This document shows, in pieces, positions 3,997 to 63,895 of a DNA stretch of 64,000 nt. The notes under the pieces were generated by a model. That model was given only the letters and a program-made list of their open reading frames with translations, searched no databases and was not told the origin of the DNA. The DNA is taken from positions 6,572,001 through 6,636,000 of the forward strand of contig OY987230.1 in assembly GCA_963920705.1 (NCBI GenBank). The letters are read 5' to 3'. The position numbers and the translations under genes were made by a program. The stretch comes from Odiellus spinosus. Taxonomy: Eukaryota > Arthropoda > Arachnida > Opiliones > Phalangiidae. The first letter of the stretch is position 1. Every line of letters begins with the position of its first letter.

Positions 3997-4636
3997 ACGT
4001 AGAAAACCTTAGCGTTAAATGAATAATTTGTCCGTTTTATACAAGTGTGTTTTGTTTAATATGAAATAAAAATTAAAGATACTACTCCAGTATCTTCTAA
4101 TTGGTATGATTTCTCTATTTATTTTTCGAGTTTCTTATACACCAAAGACTATTCAAGTAAGCTATATAGTCTTTGCACGGCCCCTGTAAAGCTAGCAAAA
4201 GCCTACTGCATGAATGCTTGACAAGTGGAACACTTCTACAGGCGTTTTCGAGGATTTCGAGGCATAGTAGACCAAAAATATACGAATTTCATTTTGCCGC
4301 CAGCACTATACCCGTGGCAGTTACAAAATAATTCTTTCCTAATATTTTCCTAACATAATTATGAATCTATAATAATAACCGTTCAAGATTTTCGTGTGGG
4401 GGAAGGCTTTCATATCCGGCACGGAAGTCATAGATTCTTCCTATTCTTTACATTATGGAAGAAACCTTCCATTCGTTGTAATTCCCAAAATTTACAGTTG
4501 TGAGCTCGAATTTTAGCTTTAAATTATCCCCCAACTACCGTATTTTAATAATATAATACGAATTTATCATAAAAGAGACGAAAATTTTTAACATTACGTG
4601 GACCCAGACTCTTATGGGGAGTTGCTGTTGTTCTTT
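2993..4636 (+). repeat. Right arm of 1.64-kb inverted repeat
   Basis: Mirror copy of 1097-2741. It includes the 3' end of the transposase and about 640 bp of AT-rich 3' flank, with a possible polyadenylation signal AATAAA near 4064. Confidence 0.9.
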
Positions 4637-7504: not shown

Positions 7505-27524
<20,020 letters not shown>

Positions 27525-28453: not shown

Positions 28454-28836
28454 ATCGTAAGGGGTCCCCATGTAAAAAAAACTAAAAAAAAAAAAAAATT
28501 TTTTTTACAAGTTGTACTCCTTGTAAAAAAAAAAATCGAAATTTTTACAAGGGGTACCCCTTGTAAAAAAAAAAAAAAAAAAAAAATACACCCCCTGTAA
28601 AATAAATAATCAAAAATTTTACAAAGGGCACCCCATGTAAAAAAAAAAAAAAAAAAATACTCCCATGTATTATTATTTTTTATTATTTATTTTACAGGGG
28701 TGTATTTATTTTTTTTACCCCTTGTAAAATTTTTGATAATTTATTTTACAGGGGGTGTATTCATTTTTTTTACCCCTTGTAAAATTTTTGATTATTTATT
28801 TTACAGGGGGTGTATTTATTTTTTTTACAAGGGGTA
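28454..28836. repeat. Outer left segment of A/T tracts and CCCCTTGTAAAA blocks
   Basis: Imperfect copies of TTTTACAAGGGGT and its reverse ACCCCTTGTAAAA joined by poly-A and poly-T runs; contains TTTTACAGGGGGTGTATT twice near its right end (28748 and 28801). Confidence 0.75.
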
Positions 28837-29790
28837 TTTTCAATGGGTCTTGTATTTTCAAAGGGTCTAGTATTTTCAAAGGGTCTAGTATTTTCAAAGG
28901 GTCTAGTATTTTCAAAGGGTCTAGTATTTTCAAAGGGTCTTTTATTTTCAAAGGGTCTTTTATTTTCAAAGGGTCTTTTATTTTCAAAGGGTCTTTTATT
29001 TTCAAAGGGTCTTTTATTTTCAAAGGGTCTTTTCTTTTCAAAGGGTCTTTTCTTTTCAAAGGGTCTCGTATTTTCAAAGGGTCTCGTATTTTCAAAGGGT
29101 CTCGTATTTTCAAAGGGTCTCGTATTTTCAAAGGGTCTCGTATTTTCAAAGGGTCTCGTATTTTCAAAGGGTCTCGTATTTTCAAAGGGTCTAGTATTTT
29201 CAAAGGGTCTAGTATTTTCAAAGGGTCTAGTATTTTCAAAGGGTCTAGTATTTTCAAAGGGTCTAGTATTTTCAAAGGGTCTAGTATTTTCAAAGGGTCT
29301 AGTATTTTCAAAGGGTCTAGTATTTTCAAAGGGTCTAGTATTTTCAAAGGGTCTTTTCTTTTCAAAGGGTCTTTTCTTTTCAAAGGGTCTTTTCTTTTCA
29401 AAGGGTCTTTTCTTTTCAAAGGGTCTCGTATTTTCAAAGGGTCTCGTATTTTCAAAGGGTCTCGTATTTTCCAAGGGGCTCGTACTTTCAAAGGGTCTCG
29501 TACTTTCAAAGGGTCTCGTACTTTCAAAGGGTCTCGTACTTTCAAAGGGTCTCGTATTTTCAAAGGGTCTCGTATTTTCAAAGGGTCTCGTATTTTCAAA
29601 GGGTCTCGTATTTTCAAAGGGTCTCGTATTTTCAAAGGGTCTCGGATTTTCAAAGGGTCTCGGATTTTCAAAGGGTCTCGGATTTTCAAAGGGTCTCGGA
29701 TTTTCAAAGGGTCTCGGATTTTCAAAGGGTCTCGGATTTTCAAAGGGTCTCGGATTTTCAAAGGGTCTCGGATTTTCAAAGGGTCTTTTA
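28837..29790. repeat. 18-bp array, 53 units
   Basis: TTTTCAAAGGGTCTAGTA and close variants. The span divides exactly into 53 units of 18 bp, so there are no indels. Variants occur in blocks: AGTA, then TTTA, TTTC, CGTA, AGTA, TTTC, CGTA, CGTA with C in place of T, CGTA and finally CGGA, plus one TTTA at the end. Open in several frames on both strands only because 18 is divisible by 3 and the unit lacks stops there. Confidence 0.95.
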
Positions 29791-29799
29791 TTTTCAAAT

Positions 29800-30075
29800 A
29801 CACCCCCTGTAAAATAAATAATCAAAAATTTTACAAGGGGTACCTATTGTAAAAAAAAAAATCAATTATTATTTTTTTACAAGGGTACCCCTTGTAATAA
29901 AAATCAATTATTATTTTTTTACAACGGGTACCCCTTGTAAAAAAATAACAAATTGATTTTTTTTACAAGGTGTACCCCTTGTAAAAAATCAATTGTTTTT
30001 TTACATGGGGTACCACTTGTAAAAAAAATCAATTATTATTATTTTACAAGGGGTATCCCTTTTAAAAATAATCAA
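29800..30075. repeat. Cluster of ACAAGGGGTACCCCTTGT palindromes
   Basis: Several near-perfect palindromes of the type TTTTACAAGGGGT/ACCCCTTGTAAAA around a central GGTACC, joined by TCAATTATTA linkers. Two further clusters lie at 31050-31200 and 32195-32290. Each half resembles the neighbouring array unit, so each palindrome is a unit meeting its own inverse. Confidence 0.9.
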
Positions 30076-32545
30076 TTTTTTTACAGGGGGTGTATTTATT
30101 ATTTTGTTTTTACAGGGGGTTTATTTATTATTTTGTTTTTACAGGGGGTGTATTTATTATTTTGTTTTTACAGGGGGTGTATTTATTATTTTGTTTTTAC
30201 AGGGGGTGTATTTATTATTTTGTTTTTACAGGGGTGTATTTATTATTTTTTTTTTTTTACAGGGGGTGTATTTATTATTTTTTTTTTTTTACAGGGGGTG
30301 TATTTATTATCTTTTTACAAGGGGTGTATTTATTATTTTTTGACAGGGGGTGTATTTATTATTTATTTTTTTTACAGGGGGTGTATTTATTATTTATTTT
30401 TTACAGGGGGTGTATTTATTGTTTATTTTTTTTACAGGGGGTGTATTTATTATTTTTTTTACAGGGGGTGTATTTATTATTTATTTTTTTTACAGGGGTG
30501 TATTTATTATTTTTTTTACAGGGGGTGTATTTATTATTTATTTTTTTTACAGGTGGTGTATTTATTATTTTTTTACAGGGGGTGTATTTATTATTTATTT
30601 TTTTACAGGGGGTGTATTTATTATTTATTTTTTTACAGGGGGTGTATTTATTTTTTTTACACGGGGTGGATTTTTTTTTTTTTTTACAAGGGGTGTATTT
30701 ATTATTATTTTTTACAGGGGGTGTATCTATATTTTTTTACAGGGGGTGTATTTATTTTTACAGGGGGTATATTTATAATTTTTTTACAGCTAGGGGCGTA
30801 TTTATTATTTTTTACAGGGGGTGTATTTATTATTTTTTTTTACATGGGTTGTATTTATTATTTTTTTACAGGGGGTGTATTTATTATTTTTTTTTTTTAC
30901 AGGGAGTGTATTTATTATTTATTTTTTTTTACAGGGGGTGTATTTATTATTATTTTTTTTTACAGGGGTGTATTTATTATAATTTTTTTTTACAGGGGTG
31001 TATTTATTATTATTTTTTTTTACAGGGGTGTATTTATTGTTATTTTTTTTTACAGGGGTACCCCTTGTAAAAAAAATTAAATTATTATTTTTTTACAAGG
31101 GGTACCCCTTGTAAAAAAAACAATTATTATTTTTTTACAAGGGGTACCCCTTGTAAAAAAAAATCAATTATTATTTTTTTACAGGGGGTATCCCTTTTAA
31201 AAATAATCAATTTTTTTACAGGGGGTGTATTTATTATTTTGTTTTTACAGGGGTGTATTTATTATTTTGTTTTTACAGGGGGTGTATTTATTATTTGGTT
31301 TTTACAGGGGGTTTATTTATTATTTTGTTTTTACAGGGGGTGTATTTATTATTTTGTTTTTACAGGGGTGTATTTATTATTTTGTTTTTACAGGGGGTGT
31401 ATTTATTATTTTTTTTTTTTATAGGGGGTGTATTTATAATTTTTTTTTTTTTTTACAGGGGGTGTATTTATTATCTTTTTACAAGGGGTGTATTTATTAT
31501 TTATTTTTTGACAGAGGGTGTATTTATTATTTATTTTTTTTTACAGGGGGTGTATTTATTATTTATTTTTTTACAGGGGGTGTATTTATTGTTTATTTTT
31601 TTTTACAGGGGGTGTATTTATTATTTATTTTTTTACAGGGGGTGTATTTATTATTTATTTTTTTACAAGGGGTGTATTTATTATTTTTTTTACAAGGGGT
31701 GTATTTATTATTTATTTTTTTTACAGGTGGTGTATTTATTATTTTTTTACAGGGGGTGTATTTATTATTTTTTTTTTACAGGGGGTGTATTTATTTTTTT
31801 ACAGGGGGTGGATTTATTTATTTTTTTTTACAAGGGGTGTATTTATTATTATTTTTTACAGGGGGTGTACCTATTTTTTTTTACAGGGGGTGTATTTATT
31901 TTTTTTACAGGGGGTATATTTATAATTTTTTTACAGGGGGCGTATTTATAATTTTTCACAGGGGGTGTATTTATTATTTTTTTTTTACAGGGGTTGTATT
32001 TATTATTTTTTTACAGGAGGTGTATTTATTATTTTTTTTTTTTTACAGGGGGTGTATTTATTATTTATTTTTTTTTACAGGGGGTGTATTTATTATTATT
32101 TTTTTTTACAGGGGTGTATTTATTATTATTTTTTTTACAGGGGTGTATTTATTATTATTTTTTTTTGCAGGGGTGTATTTATTGTTATTTTTTTTTACAG
32201 GGGTACCCCTTGTAAAAAAAAACAATTATTATTTTTTTACAAGGGGTACCCCTTGTAAAAAAAAATCAATTATTATTTTTTTACAGGGGGTATATTTATT
32301 ATTTTTTTTTACACGGGGTGTATTTATTATTTATTTTTTTACAGGGGGTGTATTTATTGTTTATTTTTTACAGGGGGTGTATTTATTATTTATTTTTTTA
32401 CAGGGGGTGTATTTCTTATTTATTTTTTTTACAGGGGGTGTATTTATTATTTTTTTTTACAGGGGGTGTATTTATTTTTTTTTTACAGGTGGTGTATTTA
32501 TTATTATTTTTTATACAGGGGGTGTATTTATTATTTATTTTTTTT
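30066..32545. repeat. Roughly 30-bp array, TTTTACAGGGGGTGTATTT type
   Basis: Units of TTTTACAGGGGGTGTATTTA plus a T-rich linker of variable length (about 25-33 bp in all). Two near-identical halves start at 30045 and 31186, both led by GGGTATCCCTTTTAAAAATA, so the first 1.14 kb was tandemly duplicated. Extended + strand frames result from the lack of stops in the unit. Confidence 0.92.
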
Positions 32546-35500
32546 TACACCCCCTGTAAAAAGTACGAAACGATAAATACACCCCCTGTAAAAAGTACGA
32601 AACGATAAATACACCCCCTGTAAAAAGTACGAAACGATAAATACACCCCCTGTATAAAGCACGAAACGATAAATACACCCCCTGTAAAAAGTACGAAACG
32701 ATAAATACACCCCCTGTAAAAAACACGAAACGATAAATACACCCCCTGTAAAAAGTACGAAACGATAAATACACCCCCTGTAAAAAGTACGAAACGATAA
32801 ATACACCCCCTGTAAAAAGTACGAAACGATAAACACACCCCCTGTAAAAAGTACGAAACGATAAATACACCCCCTGTAAAAAATACGAAACGATAAATAC
32901 ACCCCCTGTAAAAAGTACGAAACGATAAATACACCCCCTGTAAAAAGTACGAAACGATAAATACACCCCCAGTGAAAAGTACGAAACGATAAATACACCC
33001 CCTGTAAAAAGTACGAAACGATAAATACACCCCCTGTAAAAAACACGAAACGATAAATACACCCCCTGTAAAAAGTACGAAACGATAAATACACCCCCTG
33101 TAAAAAGTACGAAACGATAAATACACCCCCTGTAAAAAGTACGAAACGATAAACACACCCCCTGTAAAAAGTACGAAACGATAAATACACCCCCTGTAAA
33201 AAGTACGAAACGATAAATACACCCCCTGTAAAAAGTGCGAAACGATAAAAACACCCCCTGTAAAAAGTGCGAAACGATAAATACACCCACAGTAAAAAGT
33301 GCGAAACGATAAATACACCCCCAGTAAAAAGTGCGAAACGATAAATACACCCCCTGTAAAAAGTGCGAAACGATAAATACACCCCCTGTAAAAAGTGCAA
33401 AACGATAAATACACCCCCTGTAAAAAGTGCGAAACGATAAATACACCCCTGTGAAAAGTACGAAACGATAAATACACCCCCTGTAAAAAAAAGAAACGAT
33501 AAATACACCCCCTGTAAAAAGTACGAAACGATAAATACACCCCCTGTAAAAAGTACGAAACGATAAATACACCCCTGTAAAAGTACGAAACGATAAATAC
33601 ACCCCCAGTAAAAAGTACGAAACGATAAATAAACCCCCTGTAAAAAATACGAAACGATAAATACACCCCCTGTAAAAAGTACGAAACGATAAATAAACCC
33701 CCTGTAAAAAATACGAAACGATAAATACACCCCCTGTAAAAAGTACGAAACGATAAATACACCCCCTGTAAAAAATACGAAACGATAAATACACCCCTTG
33801 TAAAAAGTACGAAACGATAAATACACCCCTTGTAAAAAGTACGAAACGATAAATACACCCCCTGTAAAAAGTACGAAACGATAAATACACCCCCTGTAAA
33901 AAGTACGAAACGATAAATACACCTCCTGTACGAAACGATAAATACACCCCCTGTAAAAAGTGCGAAACGATAAATACACCCCCAGTGAAAAGTACGAAAC
34001 GATAAATACACCCCCTGTAAAAAGTACGAAACGATAAATACACCCCCTGTAAAAAACACGAAACGATAAAAACACCCCGTGTAAAAAGTACGAAACGATA
34101 AATACACACCCTGTAAAAAGTACGAAACGATAAATACACCCCCTGTAAAATATACGAAACGATAAATACACCCCCTGTAAAAAGTACGAAACGATAAACA
34201 CACCCCCTGTAAAAAGTACGAAACGATAAATACACCCCCTGTAAAAAGTACGAAACGATAAATACACCCCCTGTAAAAAGTGCGAAACGATAAATACACC
34301 CACAGTAAAAAGTGCGAAACGATAAATACACCCACTGTAAAAAGTGCGAAACGATAAATACACCCCCTGTAAAAAGTGCGAAACGATAAATACACCCCCT
34401 GTAAAAAGTGCGAAACGATAAATACACCCCCTGTAAAAAGTGCGAAACGATAAATACACCCCTGTGAAAAGTACGAAACGATAAATACACCCCCTGTAAA
34501 AAAAGAAACGATAAATACACCCCCTGTAAAAAGTACGAAACGATAAATACACCCCCTGTAAAAAGTACGAAACGATAAATACACCCCTGTAAAAGTACGA
34601 AACGATAAATACACCCCCAGTAAAAAGTACGAAACGATAAATAAACCCCCTGTAAAAAATACGAAACGATAAATACACCCCCTGTAAAAAGTACGAAACG
34701 ATAAATACACCCCCTGTAAAAAATACGAAACGATAAATACACCCCTTGTAAAAAGTGCGAAACGATAAATACACCCCTTGTAAAAAGTACGAAACGATAA
34801 ATACACCCCCTGTAAAAAGTACGAAACGATAAATACACCCCCTGTAAAAAGTACGAAACGATAAATACACCTCCTGTACGAAACGATAAATACACCCCCT
34901 GTAAAAAGTGCGAAACGATAAATACACCCCCTGTAAAAGTACGAAACGATAAATACATCCCCAGTAAAAAGTACGAAACGATAAATAAACCCCCTGTAAA
35001 AAATACGAAACGATAAATACACCCCCTGTAAAAAGTACGAAACGATAAATACACCCCCTGTAAAAAGTACGAAACGATAAATACATCCCTGTAAAAGTAC
35101 GAAACGATAAATACACCCCCTGTAAAAAGTACGAAACGATAAATACACCCCCTGTAAAAAACACGAAACGATAAAAACACCCCCTGTAAAAAGTACGAAA
35201 CGATAAATACACCCCCTGTAAAAAGTACGAAACGATAAATACACCCCCTGTAAAAAATACGAAACGATAAATACACCCCCTGTAAAAAGTACGAAACGAT
35301 AAATACATCCCTGTAAAAGTACGAAACGATAAATACACCCCCAGTAAAAAGTACGAAACGATAAATACACCCCCTGTAAAATACACGAAACGATAAATAC
35401 ACCCCCTGTAAAAAGTACGAAACGATAAATACACCCCCTGTAAAAAACACGAAACGATAAATACACCCCCTGTAAAAAGTACGAAACGATAAATACACCC

Positions 35501-38500
35501 CCTGTAAAAAGTACGAAACGATAAATACACCCCCTGTAAAAAGTACGAAACGATAAACACACCCCCTGTATAAAGTACGAAACGATAAATACACCCCCTG
35601 TAAAAAGTACGAAACGATAAATACACCCCCTGTAAAAAGTACGAAACGATAAATACACCCCCTGTAAAAAGTACGAAACGATAAATACACCCCCTGTAAA
35701 AAACACGAAACGATAAATACACCCCCTGTAAAAAGTACGAAACGATAAATACACCCCCTGTAAAAAGTGCGAAACGATAAATACACCCCTGTGAAAAGTA
35801 CGAAACGATAAATACACCCCCTGTAAAAAAAAGAAACGATAAATACACCCCCTGTAAAAAGTACGAAACGATAAATACACCCCCTGTAAAAAGTACGAAA
35901 CGATAAATACACCCCTGTAAAAGTACGAAACGATAAATACACCCCCAGTAAAAAGTACGAAACGATAAATAAACCCCCTGTAAAAAGTACGAAACGATAA
36001 ATACACCCCCTGTAAAATATACGAAACGATAAATACACCCCCTGTAAAAAGTACGAAACGATAAATACACCACCTGTAAAAAACACGAAACGATAAATAC
36101 ACCCCCTGTAAAAAGTACGAAACGATAAATACACACCCTGTAAAAAGTACGAAACGATAAATACACCCCCTGTAAAAAGTACGAAACGATAAACACACCC
36201 CCTGTATAAAGTACGAAACGATAAATACACCCCCTGTAAAAAGTACGAAACGATAAATACACCCCCTGTAAAAAGTACGAAACGATAAATACACCCCCTG
36301 TAAAAAATACGAAACGATAAATACACCCCCTGTAAAAAGTACGAAACGATAAATACACCCCTTGTAAAAAGTGCGAAACGATAAATACACCCCCAGTAAA
36401 AAGTGCGAAACGATAAATACACCCCTGTGAAAAGTACGAAACGATAAATACACCCCCTGTAAAAAAAAGAAACGATAAATACACCCCCTGTAAAAAGTAC
36501 GAAACGATAAATACACCCCCTGTAAAAAGTACGAAACGATAAATACACCCCTGTAAAAGTACGAAACGATAAATACACCCCCAGTAAAAAGTACGAAACG
36601 ATAAATAAACCCCCTGTAAAAAATACGAAACGATAAATACACCCCCTGTAAAAAATACGAAACGATAAATACACCCCCTGTAAAAAGTACGAAACGATAA
36701 ATACACCCCCTGTAAAAAATACGAAACGATAAATACACCCCTTGTAAAAAGTACGAAACGATAAATACACCCCCTGTAAAAAGTACGAAACGATAAATAC
36801 ACCCCCTGTAAAAAGTACGAAACGATAAATACACCTCCTGTACGAAACGATAAATACACCCCCTGTAAAAAGTGCGAAACGATAAATACACCCCCAGTGA
36901 AAAGTACGAAACGATAAATACACCCCCTGTAAAAAGTACGAAACGATAAATACACCCCCTGTAAAAAACACGAAACGATAAATACACCCCCTGTAAAAAA
37001 CACGAAACGATAAAAACACCCCCTGTAAAAAGTACGAAACGATAAATACACCCCCTGTAAAAAGTACGAAACGATAAATACACCCCCTGTAAAAAATACG
37101 AAACGATAAATACACCCTCTGTAAAAAGTACGAAACGATAAATACACCCCTGTAAAAGTACGAAACGATAAATACACCCCCAGTAAAAAGTACGAAACGA
37201 TAAATACACCCCCTGTAAAATATACGAAACGATAAATACACCCCCTATAAAAAGTACGAAACGATAAATACACCCCCTGTAAAAAACACGAAACGATAAA
37301 TACACCCCCTGTAAAAAGTACGAAACGATAAATACACCCCCTGTAAAAAGTACGAAACGATAAATACACCCCCTGTAAAAAGTACGAAACGATAAACACA
37401 CCCCCTGTATAAAGTACGAAACGATAAATACACCCCCTGTAAAAAGTACGAAACGATAAATACACCCCCTGTAAAAAGTACGAAACGATAAATACACCCC
37501 CTGTAAAAAGTACGAAACGATAAATACACCCCCTGTAAAAAACACGAAACGATAAATACACCCCCTGTAAAAAATACGAAACGATAAATACACCCCCTGT
37601 AAAAAATACGAAACGATAAATACACGCCCTGTAAAAAGTACGAAACGATAAATACACCCCCTGTAAAAAGTGCGAAACGATAAATACACCCCCTGTAAAA
37701 AGTGCGAAACGATAAATACACCCCTGTGAAAAGTACGAAACGATAAATACACCCCCTGTAAAAAAAAGAAACGATAAATACACCCCCTGTAAAAAGTACG
37801 AAACGATAAATACACCCCCTGTAAGAAGTGCGAAACGATAAATACACCCCCTGTAAAAAATACGAAACGATAAATACACCCCTTGTAAAAAGTACGAAAC
37901 GATAAATACACCCCTTGTAAAAAGTACGAAACGATAAATACACCCCCTGTAAAAAGTACGAAACGATAAATACACCCCCTGTAAAAAGTACGAAACGATA
38001 AATACACCTCCTGTACGAAACGATAAATACACCCCCTGTAAAAAGTGCGAAACGATAAATACACCCCCAGTGAAAAGTACGAAACGATAAATACACCCCC
38101 TGTAAAAAGTACGAAACGATAAATACACCCCCTGTAAAAAACACGAAACGATAAAAACACCCCCTGTAAAAAGTACGAAACGATAAATACACACCCTGTA
38201 AAAAGTACGAAACGATAAATACACCCCCTGTAAAATATACGAAACGATAAATACACCCCCTGTAAAAAGTACGAAACGATAAACACACCCCCTGTAAAAA
38301 GTACGAAACGATAAATACACCCCCTGTAAAAAGTACGAAACGATAAATACACCCCCTGTAAAAAGTGCGAAACGATAAATACACCCACAGTAAAAAGTGC
38401 GAAACGATAAATACACCCACTGTAAAAAGTGCGAAACGATAAATACACCCCCTGTAAAAAGTGCGAAACGATAAATACACCCCCTGTAAAAAGTGCGAAA

Positions 38501-41500
38501 CGATAAATACACCCCCTGTAAAAAGTGCGAAACGATAAATACACCCCTGTGAAAAGTACGAAACGATAAATACACCCCCTGTAAAAAAAGAAACGATAAA
38601 TACACCCCCTGTAAAAAGTACGAAACGATAAATACACCCCCTGTAAAAAGTACGAAACGATAAATACACCCCTGTAAAAGTACGAAACGATAAATACACC
38701 CCCAGTAAAAAGTACGAAACGATAAATAAACCCCCTGTAAAAAATACGAAACGATAAATACACCCCCTGTAAAAAGTACGAAACGATAAATACACCCCCT
38801 GTAAAAAATACGAAACGATAAATACACCCCTTGTAAAAAGTGCGAAACGATAAATACACCCCTTGTAAAAAGTACGAAACGATAAATACACCCCCTGTAA
38901 AAAGTACGAAACGATAAATACACCCCCTGTAAAAAGTACGAAACGATAAATACACCTCCTGTACGAAACGATAAATACACCCCCTGTAAAAAGTGCGAAA
39001 CGATAAATACACCCCCTGTAAAAGTACGAAACGATAAATACATCCCCAGTAAAAAGTACGAAACGATAAATAAACCCCCTGTAAAAAATACGAAACGATA
39101 AATACACCCCCTGTAAAAAGTACGAAACGATAAATACACCCCCTGTAAAAAGTACGAAACGATAAATACATCCCTGTAAAAGTACGAAACGATAAATACA
39201 CCCCCTGTAAAAAGTACGAAACGATAAATACACCCCCTGTAAAAAACACGAAACGATAAAAACACCCCCTGTAAAAAGTACGAAACGATAAATACACCCC
39301 CTGTAAAAAGTACGAAACGATAAATACACCCCCTGTAAAAAATACGAAACGATAAATACACCCCCTGTAAAAAGTACGAAACGATAAATACATCCCTGTA
39401 AAAGTACGAAACGATAAATACACCCCCAGTAAAAAGTACGAAACGATAAATACACCCCCTGTAAAATACACGAAACGATAAATACACCCCCTGTAAAAAG
39501 TACGAAACGATAAATACACCCCTGTAAAAAACACGAAACGATAAATACACCCCCTGTAAAAAGTACGAAACGATAAATACACCCCTTGTAAAAAGTACGA
39601 AACGATAAATACACCCCCTGTAAAAAGTACGAAACGATAAACACACCCCCTGTATAAAGTACGAAACGATAAATACACCCCCTGTAAAAAGTACGAAACG
39701 ATAAATACACCCCCTGTAAAAAGTACGAAACGATAAATACACCCCCTGTAAAAAGTACGAAACGATAAATACACCCCCTGTAAAAAACACGAAACGATAA
39801 ATACACCCCCTGTAAAAAGTACGAAACGATAAATACACCCCCTGTAAAAAGTGCGAAACGATAAATACACCCCTGTGAAAAGTACGAAACGATAAATACA
39901 CCCCCTGTAAAAAAAAGAAACGATAAATACACCCCCTGTAAAAAGTACGAAACGATAAATACACCCCCTGTAAAAAGTACGAAACGATAAATACACCCCT
40001 GTAAAAGTACGAAACGATAAATACACCCCCAGTAAAAAGTACGAAACGATAAATAAACCCCCTGTAAAAAGTACGAAACGATAAATACACCCCCTGTAAA
40101 ATATACGAAACGATAAATACACCCCCTGTAAAAAGTACGAAACGATAAATACACCCCCTGTAAAAACACGAAACGATAAATACACCCCCTGTAAAAAGTA
40201 CGAAACGATAAATACACCCCCTGTAAAAAGTACGAAACGATAAATACACCAACTGTAAAAAGTACGAAACGATAAACACACCCCCTGTATAAAGTACGAA
40301 ACGATAAATACACCCCCTGTAAAAAGTACGAAACGATAAATACACCCCCTGTAAAAAGTACGAAACGATAAATACACCCCCTGTAAAAAATACGAAACGA
40401 TAAATACACCCCCTGTAAAAAGTACGAAACGATAAATACACCCCTTGTAAAAAGTGCGAAACGATATATACACCCCCAGTAAAAAGTGCGAAACGATAAA
40501 TACACCCCTGTGAAAAGTACGAAACGATAAATACACCCCCTGTAAAAAAAAGAAACGATAAATACACCCCCTGTAAAAAGTACGAAACGATAAATACACC
40601 CCCTGTAAAAAGTACGAAACGATAAATACACCCCTGTAAAAGTACGAAACGATAAATACACCCCCAGTAAAAAGTACGAAACGATAAATAAACCCCCTGT
40701 AAAAAATACGAAACGATAAATACACCCCCTGTAAAAAATACGAAACGATAAATACACCCCCTGTAAAAAGTACGAAACGATAAATACACCCCCTGTAAAA
40801 AATACGAAACGATAAATACACCCCTTGTAAAAAGTACGAAACGATAAATACACCCCCTGTAAAAAGTACGAAACGATAAATACACCCCCTGTAAAAAGTA
40901 CGAAACGATAAATACACCTCCTGTACGAAACGATAAATACACCCCCTGTAAAAAGTGCGAAACGATAAATACACCCCCAGTGAAAAGTACGAAACGATAA
41001 ATACACCCCCTGTAAAAAGTACGAAACGATAAATACACCCCCTGTAAAAAACACGAAACGATAAATACACCCCCTGTAAAAAACACGAAACGATAAAAAC
41101 ACCCCCTGTAAAAAGTACGAAACGATAAATACACCCCCTGTAAAAAGTACGAAACGATAAATACACCCCCTGTAAAAAATACGAAACGATAAATACACCC
41201 TCTGTAAAAAGTACGAAACGATAAATACACCCCTGTAAAAGTACGAAACGATAAATACACCCCCAGTAAAAAGTACGAAACGATAAATACACCCCCTGTA
41301 AAATATACGAAACGATAAATACACCCCCTATAAAAAGTACGAAACGATAAATACACCCCCTGTAAAAAACACGAAACGATAAATACACCCCCTGTAAAAA
41401 GTACGAAACGATAAATACACCCCCTGTAAAAAGTACGAAACGATAAATACACCCCTGTAAAAAGTACGAAACGATAAACACACCCCCTGTATAAAGTACG

Positions 41501-47500: not shown

Positions 47501-50500
47501 TACGAAACGATAAATACACCCCCTGTAAAAAGTACGAAACGATAAATACACCCCCTGTAAAAAGTACGAAACGATAAATACACCCCCTGTAAAAAGTTCG
47601 AAACGATAAATACACCCCTGTAAAAAGTACGAAACGATAAATACACCCCCTGTAAAAAGTACGAAACGATAAAAACACCCCCTGTAAAAAGTACGAAACG
47701 ATAAATACACCCCCTGTAAAAAGTACGAAACGATAAATACACCCCCTGTAAAAAGTACGAAACGATAAATACACCCCCTGTAAAAAGTACGAAACGATAA
47801 ATACACCCCCTGTAAAAAGTTCGAAACGATAAATACACCCCTGGAAAAAGTACGAAACGATAAATACACCCCTGTAAAAAGTACGAAACGATAAATACAC
47901 CCCCTGTAAAAAGTACGAAACGATAAATACACCCCCTGTAAAAAGTACGAAACGATAAATACACCCCCTGTAAAAAGTACGAAACGATAAATACACCCCC
48001 TGTAAAAAACACGAAACGATAAATACACCCCCTGTAAAAAGTACGAAACGATAAATACACCCCCTGTAAAAAGTGCGAACCGATAAATACACCCCCTGTA
48101 AAAAGTGCGAAACGATAAATACACCCCTGTGAAAAGTACGAAACGATAAATACACCCCCTGTAAAAAAAAGAAACGATAAATACACCCCCTGTAAAAAGT
48201 ACGAAACGATATATACACCCCCTGTAAAAAGTGCGAAACGATAAATACACCCCCTGTAAAAAGTGCGAAACGATAAATACACCCCTGTAAAAAGTACGAA
48301 ACGATAAATACACCCCCTGTAAAAAGTACGAAACGATAAATACACCCCCTGTAAAAAGTACGAAACGATAAATACACCCCCTGTAAAAAGTACAAAACGA
48401 TAAATACACCCCCTGTAAAAAGTACGAAACGATAAATACACCCCATGTAAAAAGTACGAAACGATAAATACACCCCCTGTAAAAAGTACGAAACGATAAA
48501 TACACCCCCTGTAAAAAGTACGAAACGATAAATACACCCCCTGTAAAAAGTACGAAACGATAAATACACCCCCTGTATAAAGTACGAAACGATAAAACAC
48601 CCCCTGTATAAAGTACGAAACGATAAATACACCCCCTGTAAAAAGTACGAAACGATAAAAACACCCCCTGTAAAAAGTATGAAACGATAAATACACCCCC
48701 TGTAAAAAGTACGAAACGATAAATACACCCCCTGTAAAAAGTACGAAACGATAAATACACCCCTGTAAAAAGTACGAAACGATAAATACACCCCCTGTAA
48801 AAAGTACGAAACGATAAATACACCCCCTGTAAAAAGTACGAAACGATAAATACACCCCCTGTAAAAAGTACGAAACGATAAATACACCCCCTGTAAAAAG
48901 TACGAAACGATAAATACACCCCTTGTAAAAAGTACGAAACGATAAATACACCCTGTATAAAGTACGAAACGATAAAAACACCCCCTGTATAAAGTACGAA
49001 ACGATAAATACACCCCCTGTAAAAAGTACGAAACGATAAAAACACCCCCTGTAAAAAGTACGAAACGATAAATACACCCCCTGTAAAAAGTACGAAACGA
49101 TAAATACACCCCCTGTAAAAAGTACGAAACGATAAATACACCCCCTGTAAAAAGTACGAAACGATAAATACACCCCCTGTAAAAAGTACGAAACGATAAA
49201 AACACCCCCTGTATAAAGTACGAAACGATAAATACACCCCCTGTAAAAAGTACGAAACGATAAATACACCCCCTGTAAAAAGTACGAAACGATAATACAC
49301 CCCCTGTAAAAAGTACGAAACGATAATACACCCCCTGAAAAAAGTACGAAACGATAAATACACCCAATGTAAAAAGTACGAAACGATAATTACACCCCCT
49401 GTAAAAAGTACGAAACGATAATACACCCCCTGTAAAAAGTACGAAACGATAATACACCCCCTGAAAAAAGTACGAAACTATAAATACACCCAATGTATAA
49501 AGTACGAAACGATAAATACACCCCCTGTAAAAAGTACGAAACGATAAATACACCCCTGTGAAAAGTACGAAACGATAAATACACCCCCTGTAAAAAAAAG
49601 AAACGATAAATACACCCCCTGTAAAAAGTACGAAACGATAAATACACCCCCTGTAAAAAGTACGAAACGATAAAAACACCCCCTGTATAAAGTACGAAAC
49701 GATAAATACACCCCCTGTAAAAAGTACGAAACGATAAAAACACCCCCTGTAAAAAGTACGAAACGATAAATACACCCCCTGTAAAAAGTACGAAACGATA
49801 ATACACCCCCTGTAAAAAGTACGAAACGATAATACACCCCCTGAAAAAAGTACGAAACGATAAATACACCCAATGTAATAAGTACGAAACGATAATTACA
49901 CCCCCTGTAAAAAGTACGAAACGATAATACACCCCCTGTAAAAAGTACGAAACGATAATACACCCCCTGAAAAAAGTACGAAACTATAAATACACCCAAT
50001 GTATAAAGTACGAAACGATAAATACACCCCCTGTAAAAAGTACGAAACGATAAATACACCCCCTGTAAAAAGTACGAAACGATAAATACACCCCCTGTAA
50101 AAAGTACGAAACGATAAATACACCCCTGTAAAAAGTACGAAACGATAAATACACCCCCTGTAAAAAGTACGAAACGATAAATACACCCCTGTAAAAAGTA
50201 CGAAACGATAAATACACCCCCTGTAAAAAGTACGAAACGATAAATACACCCCCTGTAAAAAGTACGAAACGATAAATACACCCCCTGTAAAAAGTACGAA
50301 ACGATAAATACACCCTCTGTATAAAGTACGAAACGATAAAAACACCCCCTGTAAAAAGTACGAAACGATAAAAACACCCCCTGTAAAAAGTACGAAACGA
50401 TAAATACACCCCCTGTATAAAGTACGAAACGATAAATACACCCCCTGTATAAAGTACGAAACGATAAAAACACCCCCCTGTATAAAGTACGAAACGATAA

Positions 50501-51725
50501 ATACACCCCCTGTAAAAAGTACGAAACGATAAAAACACCCTCTGTAAAAAGTACGAAACGATAAATACACCCCCTGTAAAAAGTACGAAACGATAAATAC
50601 ACCCCCTGTAAAAAGTACGAAACGATAAATACACCCCCTGTAAAAAGTACGAAACGATAAATACACCCCCTGTAAAAAGTACGAAACGATAAATACACCC
50701 CTGTAAAAAGTACGAAACGATAAATACACCCCCTGTAAAAAGTACGAAACGATAAATACACCCCTGTAAAAAGTACGAAACGATAAATACACCCCCTGTA
50801 AAAAGTACGAAACGATAAATACACCCCCTGTAAAAAGTACGAAACGATAAATACACCCCCTGTAAAAAGTACGAAACGATAAATACACCCTCTGTATAAA
50901 GTACGAAACGATAAAAACACCCCCTGTAAAAAGTACGAAACGATAAAAACACCCCCTGTAAAAAGTACGAAACGATAAATACACCCCCTGTATAAAGTAC
51001 GAAACGATAAAAACACCCCCCTGTATAAAGTACGAAACGATAAATACACCCCCTGTAAAAAGTATGAAACGATAAAAACACCCTCTGTAAAAAGTACGAA
51101 ACGATAAATACACCCCCTGTAAAAAGTACGAAACGATAAATACACCCCCTGTAAAAAGTACGAAACGATAAATACACCCCCTGTAAAAAGTACGAAACGA
51201 TAAATACACCCCCTGTAAAAAGTTCGAAACGATAAATACACCCCTGTAAAAAGTACGAAACGATAAATACACCCCCTGTAAAAAGTACGAAACGATAAAA
51301 ACACCCCCTGTAAAAAGTACGAAACGATAAATACACCCCCTGTAAAAAGTACGAAACGATAAATACACCCCCTGTAAAAAGTACGAAACGATAAATACAC
51401 CCCCTGTAAAAAGTACGAAACGATAAATACACCCCCTGTAAAAAGTTCGAAACGATAAATACACCCCTGGAAAAAGTACGAAACGATAAATACACCCCTG
51501 TAAAAAGTACGAAACGATAAATACACCCCCTGTAAAAAGTACGAAACGATAAATACACCCCCTGTATAAAGTACGAAACGATAAATACACCCCTGTAAAA
51601 AGTACGAAACGATAAATACACCCCCTGTAAAAAGTACGAAACGATAAATACACCCCCTGTAAAAAGTACGAAACGATAAATACACCCCTGTAAAAAGTAC
51701 GAAACGATAAATACACCCCCTGTAT
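32546..51725. repeat. 31-bp satellite array, about 19 kb
   Basis: About 600 copies of a 31-bp unit made of ATACACCCCCTGTAAAAA and GTACGAAACGATAA. Variants include CCAGT, CCTTGT, GTGCG, AACACG and AAATACG forms, plus short units without GTAAAAAGT (for example at 33923, 34871 and 36835). Higher-order blocks are present: variant landmarks recur 4,083 bp apart (37245 and 41328), then 2,853 bp apart (44181), and 3,626 bp apart between about 46.1 and 49.9 kb. Because the minus strand of the unit has no stop and 31 is not a multiple of 3, all three minus frames stay open for kilobases. This is not coding evidence. Confidence 0.95.
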
Positions 51726-51735
51726 TTAACAACCA

Positions 51736-52770
51736 ATGATGACTAACAACCTTACAATAATTTATCAAAATGTCAGAGGCTTACGTACTAAAGCCGACGA
51801 ATTTTTTGGCAATGAACTAACGAACGCCTCACACATCTTCTGCTTGACTGAAACTTTTTTAAACGACGATTATTTTAATTCCGACTATTTCCCAAATTCT
51901 TTTACTGTTTATCGCAACGACCGACAGTCCTACGGAGGCGGGGTTTTGATTGCAGTGTCTAGATCTGTCAAAGCTATCAGACGACAGGACCTTGAAGCTG
52001 GTTTTGAAGCGGTTTGGATTTAAATCGCTTTAGCTAACAAGCTCAAGATGTTACTGGGTAATATCTATTTACCGCCCAACCTATCCGTCTCGAAATACGA
52101 GGAACTTGCTACTTTTATTGGGAATACCATATCCTCTTACGACGGAAATGTTATTTTAATGGGTGACTTTAACCTACCCAAGGTTCATTGGCATTCACTC
52201 GACACCAGTAATTGCTCTCACTATATTAAAGTGAAGGCATCACTAATTATTAACTTAATGCAGTTCTGTACCTTAACACAAGTTAATACGATACTCAATC
52301 ATCAAGGGAACGTCTTAGACCTCTGTTTTGTCCGCAACAATAACGTTACCATTGAACGTGGAATACCACTTGTCCCAGAAGACAACTATCATCCAACCTT
52401 GAGGATATCCTACCACAGTAATTTCGACAACATGGAGCGAGAGAAGATGCCTACTTATTCATTTAAATTGGGAGATTATCACTCCCTTTATCTTCATCTT
52501 GCGGCCACCGATTGGAGCTCTCTATACAATTCTCAAGACTGCAACTTAAGCGTTTCCCGTTTAACTTCAGTCTTGCGTAATGCCATGGACCTTTACATCC
52601 CTAAAAACATACTGAACCATAAAACTAAAAAGCCAATCCTAGATTATCCTGGGTGGTTCTCGGCGGATCTAAGGAAGGCTATAAAGAGGAAAAAATATCT
52701 ACACGGGAAACAATCGCTTTCCATCCGTAGCACACAAAATATCTTACGATCAACAACGGACCATTACTAA
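51736..52770 (+). pseudogene. LINE endonuclease region, in-frame stop
   Basis: APE-type endonuclease. Motifs: IIYQNVRGL with the N-terminal Asn, CLTET with the catalytic Glu, GGGVLIAV, LMGDFNLP with Asp and Asn, and DNYHPTL near the C-terminal His. One TAA at 52021-52023 interrupts an otherwise continuous frame between AVWI and IALANKLK. The frame ends at 52768-52770, where a frameshift separates it from the reverse transcriptase. Confidence 0.85.
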
Positions 52771-52801
52771 GAAATTAATACGAAGAGATAAATCATCTTA
52801 C

Positions 52802-54538
52802 TTGGCTACTATTTCCAGTTCAATAAAAATGGACTCCAAAAAATTTTGGTCGTTCGTGAATGACAAAAGGAAGCCTCAATGCCATCGTATAAACCTTATA
52901 AAAAATAATCAGTTACTCACTGATAACGAAGCAATCGCCGAAGAGTTCTCGCGTTCCTTCGCCAACGTAGCCCGCGACACTTCTGATCCAGACGGGCCTA
53001 TTTTTGGTGGGAATATTGTTCCTAACGAATTCCATGATATCCACATTACAGAACAAGATGTCAACGACGCTATCGACAAACTGAAGCCTACCACAACATG
53101 TGGTTTTGATTGCATACCAAACTTCATAATAAAAGGATGCAAGGATCATCTTGTTGGGCCAATGATGCGAGTATTTAACCTGTCCCTCAAAGCCGGCGTA
53201 TTTCCGGAATCATGGAAAATTGCTGTTATCTCTCCTATTTACAAGAAAGGCTTCAAGGGTGATCCTGAAAATTTTCGCCCTATATCCGTTCTCGACTCAC
53301 TAAGTATGTGCTTTGACTATATTATGCACAAACATCTTTACAGCTGGTTTAAACTCTACATACCCGAGACACAACACGGATTCGTCAAAGGACGCTCGGT
53401 AGAAACTAATTTGTTATCCTTCGTGAATCTCGTAGAACCTATAATATCTAATCGTGGCCAGGTTGACACTGTTTATATTGACCTGTCTAAGGCGTTCGAC
53501 CGAGTATCGCATCCTCGACTACTCAGAAAACTTGAGGCACACGGGCTTACCGGTTCCCTACTGTCTTGGTGTGAAGATTACCTGACCAACCGTAACAACG
53601 TCATCAAATGCAACGGCGTTATCTGCTCCGCCTCGTTCAAGGTCGAATGTGGTGTGCCGCAGGGCTCCTCTGTGGGACCCCTTTTATTTAACATATACAT
53701 CTTTGATATTCCACCACTTATTGCACACTCTGATCTTTTTCAACTGGCGGATGACCACAAACTATGCAAAAATATAAAATCACCTGAAGATTGTAAGCAC
53801 TTGCAACATGACTTGTATCAGTTGAACAAGTGGTGTCTCGCCAACAATATTCCGATTAATGGTGATAAAACTGTCGTGATGTCATACACTCGCAAAACAA
53901 ACTCCATTTATTATAATTATCAAATAGGTGCAACTATACTTAAAAGGGAATCCATACTTAAAGACATTGGCGTATACTTTGATTCCAAACTTTTGTTTAC
54001 CTATCATATTCAACAAACTATAAACAAAAGTACTAAAGTGCTTGGTGGTGCCCTCAAAATTTCACGGCAGCTCAACTCGGGCATCTGTTTTTTAACGCTA
54101 TTCCGTTCGCTTATTTTATCAATAATTTCCTATGGCTCACTTATATATGGTAATACCTGTAGTACGAATTTATCTAAGTTAGAGTCCATTCAAAAAAAAT
54201 TTATTTATCTCTATAAACTATTTTTTGATAAAAACTCGACCAAGGAATATAGCGATTGCCTTTTGAAACTAAAACTGGACAGTATAAAATCGAGTCTAAT
54301 TAAAACCGATTTAAAATTTCTACATAGACTCGTATCAAGAAAACTAGACTGTTCGGCAGTATTATGCACATTATCTTTCAACTGTAACCTCTTCTATCCT
54401 GTGACCAATACGCCACCTTGTATGAGTCGTATCATGTCAGCGTACAATAACTTTGGATTTTCTAACGACCTGTTTAGTAGCAAAATTCCTGCCACTTTTT
54501 TATCTATTATTTTAGTTTTACATATCCCTTTAATTTAA
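52802..54538 (+). pseudogene. LINE reverse transcriptase region, frameshifted from the endonuclease
   Basis: Continues the same polyprotein in the +1 frame. A frameshift lies between about 52720 and 52800, where the frames change with no start codon of their own. Reverse transcriptase motifs in order: FRPISVL, VYIDLSKAFDRV (motif A, first catalytic Asp), GVPQGSSVGPLLF (motif B), QLADDHKL (motif C, the Tyr/Phe before ADD replaced by Leu) and a C-terminal thumb-like region. The stop is at 54536-54538. The endonuclease stop and this frameshift make the copy non-functional. Confidence 0.85.
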
Positions 54539-54636
54539 TTTTTTGATATGTATTACATGTACACCAACTTGCTGGTACCTCTGTACTGTTTTGGGTACAA
54601 TAAAAACATTTATTATTTATTATTATTATTATTATA

Positions 54637-55285
54637 ATAAATACACCCCCTGTAAAAAAAATAAATAATAAATACACCCCCTGTAAAAAAAATAAATAAT
54701 AAATACACCCCCTGTAAAAAAAAAAAAATAATAAATACACCCCCTGTAAAAAAAAAAAATAATAAATACACACCCTGTAAAAAAAAAAAATAATAAATAC
54801 ACCCCCTGTAAAAAAAAATAATAAATGCACCCCCTGTAAAAAAAAATAATAAATACACCCCCTGTAAAAAAAAATAATAAATACACCCCCTGTAAAAAAA
54901 AATAATAAACGCACTCCCTGTAAAAAAAAAATAATAAACACACCCCCTGTAAAAAAAAAATAAATAATAAATACACCCCCTGTAAAAAAAAATAAATAAA
55001 TACACCCCCTGTAAAAAAAAAAAAAAATAATAAATACACCCCCTGTAAAAAAATTAAATAATAAATACACCCCCTGTAAAAAAATTAAATAATAAATACA
55101 CCCCCTGTAAAAAAATTAAATAATAAATACACCCCCTGTAAAAAAAATAAATAATAAACACACCCCCTGTACAAAAAAAAAATAAATAATAAATACACCC
55201 CCTGTACAAAAAAAAAATAAATAATAAATACACCCCCTGTACAAAAAAAAAATAAATAATAAATACACCCCCTGTAAAAAAATAT
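54637..55285. repeat. Right inner array, AATACACCCCCTGTAAAA type
   Basis: About 21 units, each AATAAATACACCCCCTGTAA plus an A-rich linker. This is the reverse complement of the array at 30066-32545. It lacks the GTACGAAACG half of the 31-bp satellite on the other side of the LINE. Confidence 0.93.
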
Positions 55286-55290
55286 AATTG

Positions 55291-57864
55291 AGTTGAAAAG
55301 AAGTAAGTAAAAGACCGGTTGAAAAGAAGTAAGTGAAAGACCGGTTGAAAAGAAGTAAGTGAAAGACCGGTTGAAAAGAAGTAAGTGAAAGACCGGTTGA
55401 AAAGAAGTAAGTGAAAGACCGGTTGAAAAGAAGTAAGTGAAAGACCGGTTGAAAAGAAGTAAGTGAAAGACCGGTTGAAAAGAAGTAAGTGAAAGACCGG
55501 TTGAAAAGAAGTAAGTGAAAGACCGGTTGAAAAGAAGTAAGTGAAAGACCGGTTGAAAAGAAGTAAGTGAAAGACCGGTTGAAAAGAAGTAAGTGAAAGA
55601 CCGGTTGAAAAGAAGTAAGTGAAAGACCGGTTGAAAAGAAGTAAGTGAAAGACCGGTTGAAAAGAAGTAAGTGAAAGACCGGTTGAAAAGAAGTAAGTGA
55701 AAGACCGGTTGAAAAGAAGTAAGTGAAAGACCGGTTGAAAAGAAGTAAGTGAAAGACCGGTTGAAAAGAAGTAAGTAAAAGACCGGTTGAAAAGAAGTAA
55801 GTAAAAGACCGGTTGAAAAGAAGTAAGTAAAAGACCGGTTGAAAAGAAGTAAGTAAAAGACCGGTTGAAAAGAAGTAAGTAAAAGACCGGTTGAAAAGAA
55901 GTAAGTAAAAGACCGGTTGAAAAGAAGTAAGTAAAAGACCGGTTGAAAAGAAGTAAGTAAAAGACCGGTTGAAAAGAAGTAAGTAAAAGACCGGTTGAAA
56001 AGAAGTAAGTAAAAGACCGGTTGAAAAGAAGTAAGTAAAAGACCGGTTGAAAAGAAGTAAGTAAAAGACCGGTTGAAAAGAAGTAAGTAAAAGACCGGTT
56101 GAAAAGAAGTAAGTAAAAGACCGGTTGAAAAGAAGTAAGTAAAAGACCGGTTGAAAAGAAGTAAGTAAAAGACCGGTTGAAAAGAAGTAAGTAAAAGACC
56201 GGTTGAAAAGAAGTAAGTAAAAGACCGGTTGAAAAGAAGTAAGTAAAAGACCGGTTGAAAAGAAGTAAGTAAAAGACCGGTTGAAAAGAAGTAAGTAAAA
56301 GACCGGTTGAAAAGAAGTAAGTAAAAGACCGGTGGAAAAGAAGTAAGTAAAAGACCGGTGGAAAAGAAGTAAGTAAAAGACCGGTGGAAAAGAAGTAAGT
56401 AAAAGACCGGTGGAAAAGAAGTAAGTAAAAGACCGGTGGAAAAGAAGTAAGTAAAAGACCGGTGGAAAAGAAGTAAGTAAAAGACCGGTGGAAAAGAAGT
56501 AAGTAAAAGACCGGTGGAAAAGAAGTAAGTAAAAGACCGGTGGAAAAGAAGTAAGTAAAAGACCGGTGGAAAAGAAGTAAGTAAAAGACCGGTGGAAAAG
56601 AAGTAAGTAAAAGACCGGTGGAAAAGAAGTAAGTAAAAGACCGGTGGAAAAGAAGTAAGTAAAAGACCGGTGGAAAAGAAGTAAGTAAAAGACCGGTGGA
56701 AAAGAAGTAAGTAAAAGACCGGTGGAAAAGAAGTAAGTAAAAGACCGGTGGAAAAGAAGTAAGTAAAAGACCGGTGGAAAAGAAGTAAGTAAAAGACCGG
56801 TGGAAAAGAAGTAAGTAAAAGACCGGTGGAAAAGAAGTAAGTAAAAGACCGGTGGAAAAGAAGTAAGTAAAAGACCGGTGGAAAAGAAGTAAGTAAAAGA
56901 CCGGTGGAAAAGAAGTAAGTAAAAGACCGGTGGAAAAGAAGTAAGTAAAAGACCGGTGGAAAAGAAGTAAGTAAAAGACCGGTGGAAAAGAAGTAAGTAA
57001 AAGACCGGTGGAAAAGAAGTAAGTAAAAGACCGGTGGAAAAGAAGTAAGTAAAAGACCGGTGGAAAAGAAGTAAGTAAAAGACCGGTGGAAAAGAAGTAA
57101 GTAAAAGACCGGTGGAAAAGAAGTAAGTAAAAGACCGGTGGAAAAGAAGTAAGTAAAAGACCGGTGGAAAAGAAGTAAGTAAAAGACCGGTGGAAAAGAA
57201 GTAAGTAAAAGACCGGTGGAAAAGAAGTAAGTAAAAGACCGGTGGAAAAGAAGTAAGTAAAAGACCGGTGGAAAAGAAGTAAGTAAAAGACCGGTGGAAA
57301 AGAAGTAAGTAAAAGACCGGTGGAAAAGAAGTAAGTAAAAGACCGGTGGAAAAGAAGTAAGTAAAAGACCGGTGGAAAAGAAGTAAGTAAAAGACCGGTG
57401 GAAAAGAAGTAAGTAAAAGACCGGTGGAAAAGAAGTAAGTAAAAGACCGGTGGAAAAGAAGTAAGTAAAAGACCGGTGGAAAAGAAGTAAGTAAAAGACC
57501 GGTGGAAAAGAAGTAAGTAAAAGACCGGTGGAAAAGAAGTAAGTAAAAGACCGGTGGAAAAGAAGTAAGTAAAAGACCGGTGGAAAAGAAGTAAGTAAAA
57601 GACCGGTGGAAAAGAAGTAAGTAAAAGACCGGTGGAAAAGAAGTAAGTAAAAGACCGGTGGAAAAGAAGTAAGTAAAAGACCGGTGGAAAAGAAGTAAGT
57701 AAAAGACCGGTGGAAAAGAAGTAAGTAAAAGACCGGTGGAAAAGAAGTAAGTAAAAGACCGGTGGAAAAGAAGTAAGTAAAAGACCGGTGGAAAAGAAGT
57801 AAGTAAAAGACCGGTGGAAAAGAAGTAAGTAAAAGACCGGTGGAAAAGAAGTAAGTAAAAGACC
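55291..57864. repeat. 26-bp array, 99 units
   Basis: Exactly 99 units with no indel. Each is GGTTGAAAAG or GGTGGAAAAG, then AAGTAAGT, then GAAAGACC or AAAAGACC. Three homogeneous blocks, from the inside outward: TT with GAAA to about 55770, TT with AAAA to about 56330, then TG with AAAA. Confidence 0.95.
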
Positions 57865-58084
57865 GGTGGAAAAGAAGTAAAAGACCGGTGGAAAAGAAGT
57901 AAAAGACCGGTGGAAAAGAAGTAAAAGACCGGTGGAAAAGAAGTAAAAGACCGGTGGAAAAGAAGTAAAAGACCGGTGGAAAAGAAGTAAAAGACCGGTG
58001 GAAAAGAAGTAAAAGACCGGTGGAAAAGAAGTAAAAGACCGGTGGAAAAGAAGTAAAAGACCCGTGGAAAAGAAGTAAAAGACC
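57865..58084. repeat. 22-bp array, 10 units
   Basis: GGTGGAAAAGAAGTAAAAGA plus CC. It is the 26-bp unit lacking one AAGT. The last two units begin CG instead of GG, the form shared with the next array. Confidence 0.95.
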
Positions 58085-58372
58085 CGTGGAACATGAAAGA
58101 CCCGTGGAACATAAAAGACCCGTGGAACATAAAAGACCCGTGGAACATAAAAGACCCGTGGAACATAAAAGACCCGTGGAACATAAAAGACCCGTGGAAC
58201 ATAAAAGACCCGTGGAAAATAAAAGACCCGTGGAAAATAAAAGACCCGTGGAAAATAAAAGACCCGTGGAAAATAATAGACCCGTGGAAAATAAAAGACC
58301 CGTGGAAAATAAAAGACCCGTGGAAAATAAAAGACCCGTGGAAAATAAAAGACCCGTTGAAAATAAAAGACC
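58085..58372. repeat. 18-bp array, 16 units
   Basis: CGTGGAACATAAAAGACC units first, then CGTGGAAAATAAAAGACC. Exactly 16 units with no indel. The reverse complement, TTTTCCACGGGTCTTTTA, resembles the 18-bp unit of the left side. Confidence 0.95.
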
Positions 58373-58378
58373 CTTTAT

Positions 58379-63567: not shown

Positions 63568-63895
63568 CAGAAGCCGATGAAACCCTCCTTTGAAGTCTAC
63601 TACTCTCTCTCTGTATGGGTAAAATTCACGATTTTACGAGATCGGAGGGGTCCTACTTCATACCCCCCTGTCTACGGAAAATTGGAGATTCTCTCTCTCC
63701 ACAAACGACGACTATCACGACTTTTTTTTGGCGAACTCCAAGGCTGCTAGAGATACTCGCTCGACGAACTCCCGCTCCGAAAATATCTACCGTTAGGAGG
63801 CGTACGAATCGCGCTTTTTGAAACTAACCCATACAGAGAGGGGTAGACAAGACCCGGGAGTAATAGACTTCAAAGGAGGGTTTCATCGGCTTCTG
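63568..63895. mobile_element. MITE family A, copy 3
   Basis: 328 bp with ends CAGAAGCCGATGAAACC and GGTTTCATCGGCTTCTG. Flanked by GCTACAG (63561-63567) and GCCACAG (63896-63902), a 7-bp duplication with one change. Confidence 0.92.

Follow-up and report, generated by a model that had tools for sequence, protein, structure and literature searches.

The stretch of DNA analysed here, referred to as the window, comprises 64,000 nucleotides of the Odiellus spinosus genome (assembly GCA_963920705.1, contig OY987230.1, positions 6,572,001 to 6,636,000; G000:C6:6572001-6636000 in the coordinates used below), and it holds a block of tandem arrays that spans approximately 28457-58373, as delimited by Tandem Repeats Finder (TRF) and strand-specific motif counts (Table 1). 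These arrays form two arms of opposite polarity. The motif counts per strand place the flip, which is the centre of the locus, at 32545/32546, with one polarity to its left and the opposite polarity to its right; a short terminal domain of mixed orientation and the palindromic linkers are the exceptions. The 18-bp unit is found 53 times on the plus strand and never on the minus strand in 28834-29798, and the core shared by the 30-bp-class arrays, TACAGGGGGTGTA, gives counts of 63 plus and 0 minus in the left arm (30076-32545), 0 plus and 518 minus in 32546-51724, and 0 plus and 20 minus in 54634-55288, with the C-type units of 55289-58378 likewise confined to the minus strand. The arms are unequal, at 4.1 kb on the left and 25.8 kb on the right. 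The locus belongs to a dispersed family: large blocks made of short tandem repeats, each with two arms, occur in many places in the genome, and the repeats of either arm point to the centre.

Table 1. Features of the two-armed locus, in window coordinates.
Feature	Position	Strand	Composition or basis
Left terminal domain	28457..28833	.	B units (ACAAGGGGTACCCCTTGT and halves), X linkers, both orientations mixed
18-bp array (GTATTTTCAAAGGGTCTC), ~54 copies	28834..29798	+	TRF, motif counts
X linker and B palindromes, separating 18-bp from 30-bp-class array	29799..30075	+	
Left 30-bp-class array, core TACAGGGGGTGTA; B clusters at 31040-31212 and 32185-32292	30076..32545	+	TRF, motif counts
32-bp array (core plus spacer CGTTTCGTAC), ~600 copies by TRF	32546..51724	-	
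LINE insertion (endonuclease and reverse transcriptase), inside right arm	51725..54633	+	
Right 31-bp array, unit same as left 30-bp-class array	54634..55287	-	TRF, motif counts, unit comparison
26-bp array (18-bp unit plus 8 bp)	55295..57855	-	
22-bp step of 26-bp array	57856..58076	-	
Outer right 18-bp array (TAAAAGACCCGTGGAAAA)	58077..58373	-	TRF

A first-pass annotation had read this block as a foldback-like structure in mirror order, and that design is real and recurs genome-wide, with corrections at this locus to its centre, the place of its long interspersed nuclear element (LINE), a unit length, the outermost array and the lengths of the arms. The middle had been set at a 31-bp array plus the LINE. 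This LINE-centred symmetry was rejected, as polarity flips at 32545/32546 and the LINE, recognized by its matches to PF00078 and PF14529, lies 19 kb from the flip, inside the right arm between the 32-bp and 31-bp arrays. The long array, first assigned a 31-bp unit, has a unit of 32 bp in 443 of its 549 core spacings, and it carries internal multi-kb exact duplications. An 18-bp array is outermost on the right, as described, with the mixed-orientation domain of 28457-28833 lying outside its counterpart on the left; at other loci, sequence similar to this domain is found as the end of an array or as a cluster of B/X units only (compare L049-L052). The opposite orientation of the 30-bp-class units in the two arms is borne out by the core counts above. 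Within the right arm, the C-type unit lengthens from the outside to the inside, from 18 bp (16 spacings) through 22 bp (10 spacings) to 26 bp (98 spacings). The 26-bp array has no left-arm counterpart, and all 68 genome matches to an exact 21-base piece of the 26/22-bp unit fall in the window locus. Rfam and tRNA scans of the window gave no match.

The outer 18-mers of the two sides correspond after reverse complementing, as first noted, with 16 of 18 positions in agreement; none of 300 shuffles matched the score obtained when the right unit was compared with the left consensus TTTTCAAAGGGTCTCGTA, and the left variant originally quoted has six exact copies. C-type units (18 or 26 bp) were also set against core or B units in 12 comparisons, and only in one of them, between the 26-bp and the 31-bp unit, did fewer than 5 of 300 shuffles score as well. 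From these unit comparisons, no clear relationship links the C-type class (18/22/26 bp) to the core class, and the statement that the whole structure is built from related arrays is valid inside each class and does not extend across the two.

How far the arrangement recurs was assessed in the 443-Mb assembly, of which approximately 296 kb was extracted for close reading, all of it assembly sequence; the motif maps were drawn with regular expressions of our own making, which miss part of the units, for example much of the 26-bp array. The outer unit TTTTCAAAGGGTCTTTTA has 51 exact genome matches (41 + 10) at ten loci including the window, where 4218 of 4226 motif matches fit one inward flip per locus (3132 of 3140 in the same test on less sequence), with C5a and C14 contributing one arm each and little extracted sequence. 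A second set was drawn by centre, taking 14 of 58 distinct listed sites with 3 to 9 kb each, and here 1195 of 1221 motif matches fit one flip; because selection by centre guarantees that flip, this set shows just that 11 of the 14 have no further array flip over 3-9 kb. Head-to-head core centres in which the G/T-rich strand points inward gave 219 pattern matches (107 forward, 112 reverse), against 20 (10 + 10, at 12 distinct sites) for the outward arrangement searched with an equal number of fixed letters, where one site may yield several rows and the pattern permits only 0-30 bases between arms. Counting inward sites from 100 of the 219 rows, which cover C1 to part of C6, the comparable listed part holds 58 distinct inward and 5 outward sites (P=1.7e-12), or 47 and 5 when sites within 30 kb are merged, neighbouring sites being possibly non-independent. 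Extrapolation from the 58 sites suggests that there may be about 120 inward centres in total. A scan of viral contigs with a 22-base core gave 0 matches.

Polarity is thus a firm rule that recurs from locus to locus, with the outer-to-inner order of array types being looser. Sequence reaching both ends was read for four loci: the window locus, C6:7814164-7831605 (17.4 kb), C5:24077379-24100144 (22.8 kb) and C12:9963577-9987754, of which the first three carry C-type arrays in both arms. On each side, arrays of types C, C22 and E share the polarity of the core arrays, and one centre-drawn locus has the order E, C22, A on one side of the centre and A, C22, then A again on the other. In the left arms of the window locus, L010 and L011, X/B linkers separate C arrays from the arrays next to them on the inner side, and in the right arm of L055 they lie between A and C22 arrays. 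ARAGORN did not call the tRNA-like repeats that visual inspection had suggested in L010 and L015. Step-wise inward lengthening of C-type units is seen in 4 of the 8 arms with C-type arrays: the right arm of the window (18-22-26 bp) and the left arms of C6b, C12 and C5b (18 to 22 bp), that of C6b finishing with one 18-bp step. The right arm of C6b goes from 18 to 19 bp, and the remaining three arms are uniform. In Drosophila FB elements, the inverted ends consist of short tandem repeats, with a unit that lengthens toward the inside. Of the likeness in design to them that was first drawn, this lengthening is seen in half of the arms examined; the scale here is far larger, and the ends and target-site duplication are unmatched.

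The two arms of a locus resemble one another. Profiles of 14-mers give a similarity of 0.689 within loci and 0.37 between loci, a difference reached by none of 20000 permutations over 19 loci, with an unreversed control of 0.001; the 19 loci are those of the 24 with a single flip in hand, C5a and C14 lacking one and L036, L038 and L042 having several. The best match of a left arm is its own right arm in 10 of the 19 loci, a figure that becomes 9 and 8 when longer spans are used. Each locus has its own spacers in the 32-bp unit, and in C6c and C12 these are common to both sides of the flip; the columns that vary between locus consensuses concentrate in the spacer (permutation P=0.00085). Even so, selection acting on the core box is unsupported: within the window array the mismatch is 0.039 for core and 0.038 for spacer; in the other six arrays, core mismatch is lower than that of the spacer in five and higher in one. 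Perfect palindromes of the kind left by recent inverted duplication were not seen, the longest mirrored stretch being 22-388 nt. As the arms are alike and share no long mirrored copy, they probably turn over separately with some exchange between them.

The B and X units point to what may have seeded these arrays. A 120-nt B/X query has 289 genome matches, and of six B/X places extracted, five are B/X or core arrays and the sixth is L056, a 151-bp isolated copy with 17-bp inverted ends, beginning with TACCCCTTGTAAAA and ending with its inverse. L050 is a B/X-only cluster of approximately 450 bp, and the 1.5 kb read there contains no adjoining core array; a dispersed repeat with at least 33 copies of 92-98% begins at the edge of this cluster (L050 989-1075). 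Separately, G000:C1:16084756-16190101 contains at least 20 X-linker matches over approximately 105 kb, eight of them at 98-99%. Y is a single-copy piece recognized as a 129-bp match between C5b and C4d, lying outside the core arrays there. The genome search with Y returned 40 matches among 40 scored of 805 candidates. Of the 8 Y matches with a known centre no more than 25 kb away, 7 point inward under a nearest-centre rule, and the remaining one agrees with the following centre, at a distance of about 2.7 kb; for 6 of the 8, the assignment is made by strand and distance only. On C1-C5, 8 of 14 Y matches of at least 89% are near centres and 0 of 8 weaker ones are (P=0.018, with the 89% cut chosen after viewing the matches). 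Outside the Y piece of locus C4d lies an 11-bp array, CAACCCAATCT, with 76.5 copies at 98% (L043 1520-2358).

On balance, we think that the locus is a member of a dispersed foldback-like family whose two inverted tandem-repeat arms grew in place into a bipolar satellite. It has traits of both kinds of DNA, namely the long inverted ends with tandem repeats of a foldback element, in the form of opposite-polarity arms made of tandem arrays, and the long, homogenized head-to-tail arrays of a satellite, with up to approximately 600 units and a locus-specific consensus. In essence, these data suggest that small inverted-end mobile elements swelled in place into satellite DNA. The ancestor would have had inverted B/X ends (TACCCCTTGTAAAA) and would have been spread by a transposase acting in trans, a dispersal route that we infer. 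Slippage and unequal exchange may then have multiplied subterminal units in each arm, and the inverted arms could pair, so that gene conversion would keep their units similar. The LINE and the 26-bp array would be later, local events. The locus works like a foldback element, and we do not claim membership of that group, because a target-site duplication was looked for and not found: one of 8-10 bp, as in Tetris and Mutator elements, is absent from the four loci with both ends. As to fixed, conserved ends, those of the family vary between loci, with B/X ends recurring at some.

Several observations weigh against this reading, some of them concerning mobility. At the four loci with both ends, the longest word shared by the flanks is 5-6 nt, a length reached by 30-89% of shuffles; at the window locus TTATC abuts both ends as drawn, and 89% of shuffles do as well. 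L056 was also compared with miniature inverted-repeat elements, which are short and have terminal inverted repeats and a target-site duplication: its flanks have nothing but TA in common, and this TA may itself belong to the inverted ends, a TA duplication being possible there. The flanks of the window locus, C6b, C5b and L056 match nothing else in the genome, so that none of the four yielded an empty site, and no transposase has been tied to the family, with no systematic search for one having been made. No Y match falls on C6, the contig of the window, among the 40 matches listed. Other observations concern the architecture. The ends and outermost types vary, being C-type, B/X (L049 and L051) or core directly (C12 right and L030, where the core array adjoins a microsatellite), and the left arm of C12:9963577-9987754 has C and C22 arrays, with its right arm ending in a core array and having no C-type array. 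A left arm best matches the right arm of another locus in 9 of 19 loci, the window included, and the arms are not mirror copies, their longest shared stretches (22-388 nt) lying mostly at unequal distances from the centre. Finally, extra flips occur in 3 of the 14 centre-drawn loci (L036, L048+L038 and L042); arrays without mirror order, which the first-pass annotation held would refute its reading, thus mostly did not occur, these loci and the right arm of C12 being the exceptions.

One candidate for a transposase was considered. At 1097-4636, the window contains a palindromic DNA transposon whose two 1645-bp inverted arms are 99.3% identical, each with a DDE_Tnp_4 match, and a near-identical palindromic copy lies on C4 (L048+L038). 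As the family's transposase it was rejected, because that C4 copy sits inserted inside a core array. A foldback with transposase sequence in each inverted arm is worth a study of its own. A diverged relative (L019 736-4380, approximately 72% at both ends) abuts the left end of the C12 array, which begins at the last base of this relative.

The best-surviving alternative to growth from inverted-end elements puts the satellite first. One-armed core arrays would have spread by satellite routes, such as circular DNA, and each centre would be a local inverted duplication, formed when a broken 3′ end snaps back and copies the array that it belongs to; if it were usually the G/T-rich strand that snaps back, the inward polarity of 58:5 would follow. 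No gene lies between the arms in the centres read (the census pattern itself permits only 0-30 bases), the centre of the window locus folds strongly (z -7.1), and one locus has a C array in a single arm. However, a folding advantage of the G/T-rich strand was not seen. The energies of the two strands of one array are close (-4.0 vs -4.4 and -4.1 vs -4.6 kcal/mol), and shuffled versions of the 32-bp array fold as well as the array itself (z -0.6 and -1.1); nothing in the folding, a poor proxy, thus accounts for a preferred strand. Alone, the account also leaves unexplained the X/B linkers in both kinds of arm, the inward direction of Y from both sides, and the differing C-type units of the window arms. 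We consider it possible, if doubtful; the C12 locus, without a C array in one arm, led us to raise it and to lower slightly our assessment of in-place growth.

The reading given first to this DNA, in which a composite element of approximately 30 kb moved as one unit, accounts for the mirror order and its recurrence. It is very unlikely in view of the ragged array ends, the lack of any target-site duplication beyond chance at the four loci, and the failure of the proposed search for empty sites to find one at the window, C6b, C5b or the isolated copy. Units are also specific to their loci, the 26/22-bp unit occurring in the window only, and among the loci sampled there is no second copy with the same arrays of the same lengths. 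That repeats were mis-joined head to head during assembly is more improbable again: the multi-kb exact duplications inside the 32-bp array are hard to assemble, but the polarity rule holds at tens of sites with different units, and single-copy Y obeys it. A chance juxtaposition of unrelated satellites, to which the weak similarity of C-type and core units might point, is contradicted by the genome-wide recurrence of polarity and is hardly credible.

For the in-place growth of foldback-like arms, the nearest published case that we found is Tetris of Drosophila virilis, an apparently nonautonomous foldback element whose inverted ends consist of a flanking domain, tandem repeats and an inner domain (PMC4079207). 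According to the available part of that account, its repeats of approximately 220 bp were amplified into satellite-like arrays of up to 66 copies, inverted ends reach 1,735 bp, target-site duplications are 8-10 bp, no transposase was found, and membership of the Mutator superfamily was suggested (PMC4079207). The two systems share foldback-like inverted arms with repeats amplified to satellite-like arrays; unlike what that part describes for Tetris, the family here combines several array classes with units of 11-32 bp, its arms extend over many kb, its listed centres number in the tens, and no target-site duplication was seen. In Galileo of Drosophila mojavensis (P superfamily), the long inverted ends contain tandem repeats, and each end gains and loses repeats independently of the other (PMC3573991). 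As far as the accessible portion of this paper goes, its repeats are approximately 210 bp in two or three copies, its transposase is known, the ends of one copy are 98-100% identical, and sequence exchange among copies was suggested (PMC3573991). Galileo thus also has inverted ends with internal repeats, whereas the arms here are unequal and not mirror copies. Several array classes, 11-32-bp units, 20-kb arms and a polarity census were not found in the available parts of either account. In the published literature covered, which leaves most subscription papers outside, neither these units nor this arrangement appears to be described, and a search with four unit strings returned only papers unrelated by title.

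These observations address the old question of how satellites arise, spread and stay homogeneous. One genome may here preserve possible stages of the process, from an isolated 151-bp copy with inverted ends, through a B/X-only cluster of approximately 450 bp, to two-armed arrays of 17 to 30 kb. The polarity rule is a constraint for any model of array growth, and large inverted arrays would be expected to act as hot spots of breakage and inversion. It could further be proposed, tentatively and with the odds well against it, that bipolar foldback satellites are a distinct class of selfish DNA, in which short inverted-end elements seed two-armed arrays with strict polarity toward the centre, units lengthen from the outside in, and pairing keeps the arms in concert.

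Other repeats were noted in the window outside the two-armed locus. A 340-bp repeat occurs three times (12801-13142, 61500-61836 and 63568-63894), its copies being 86-92% alike, with two more in L009. Self-palindromic stretches at 13628-14073 (77%) and 14639-14932 (68%) have relatives in other extracted loci, and a 69-bp tandem array at 23834-24751 shows a 207-bp higher-order period.

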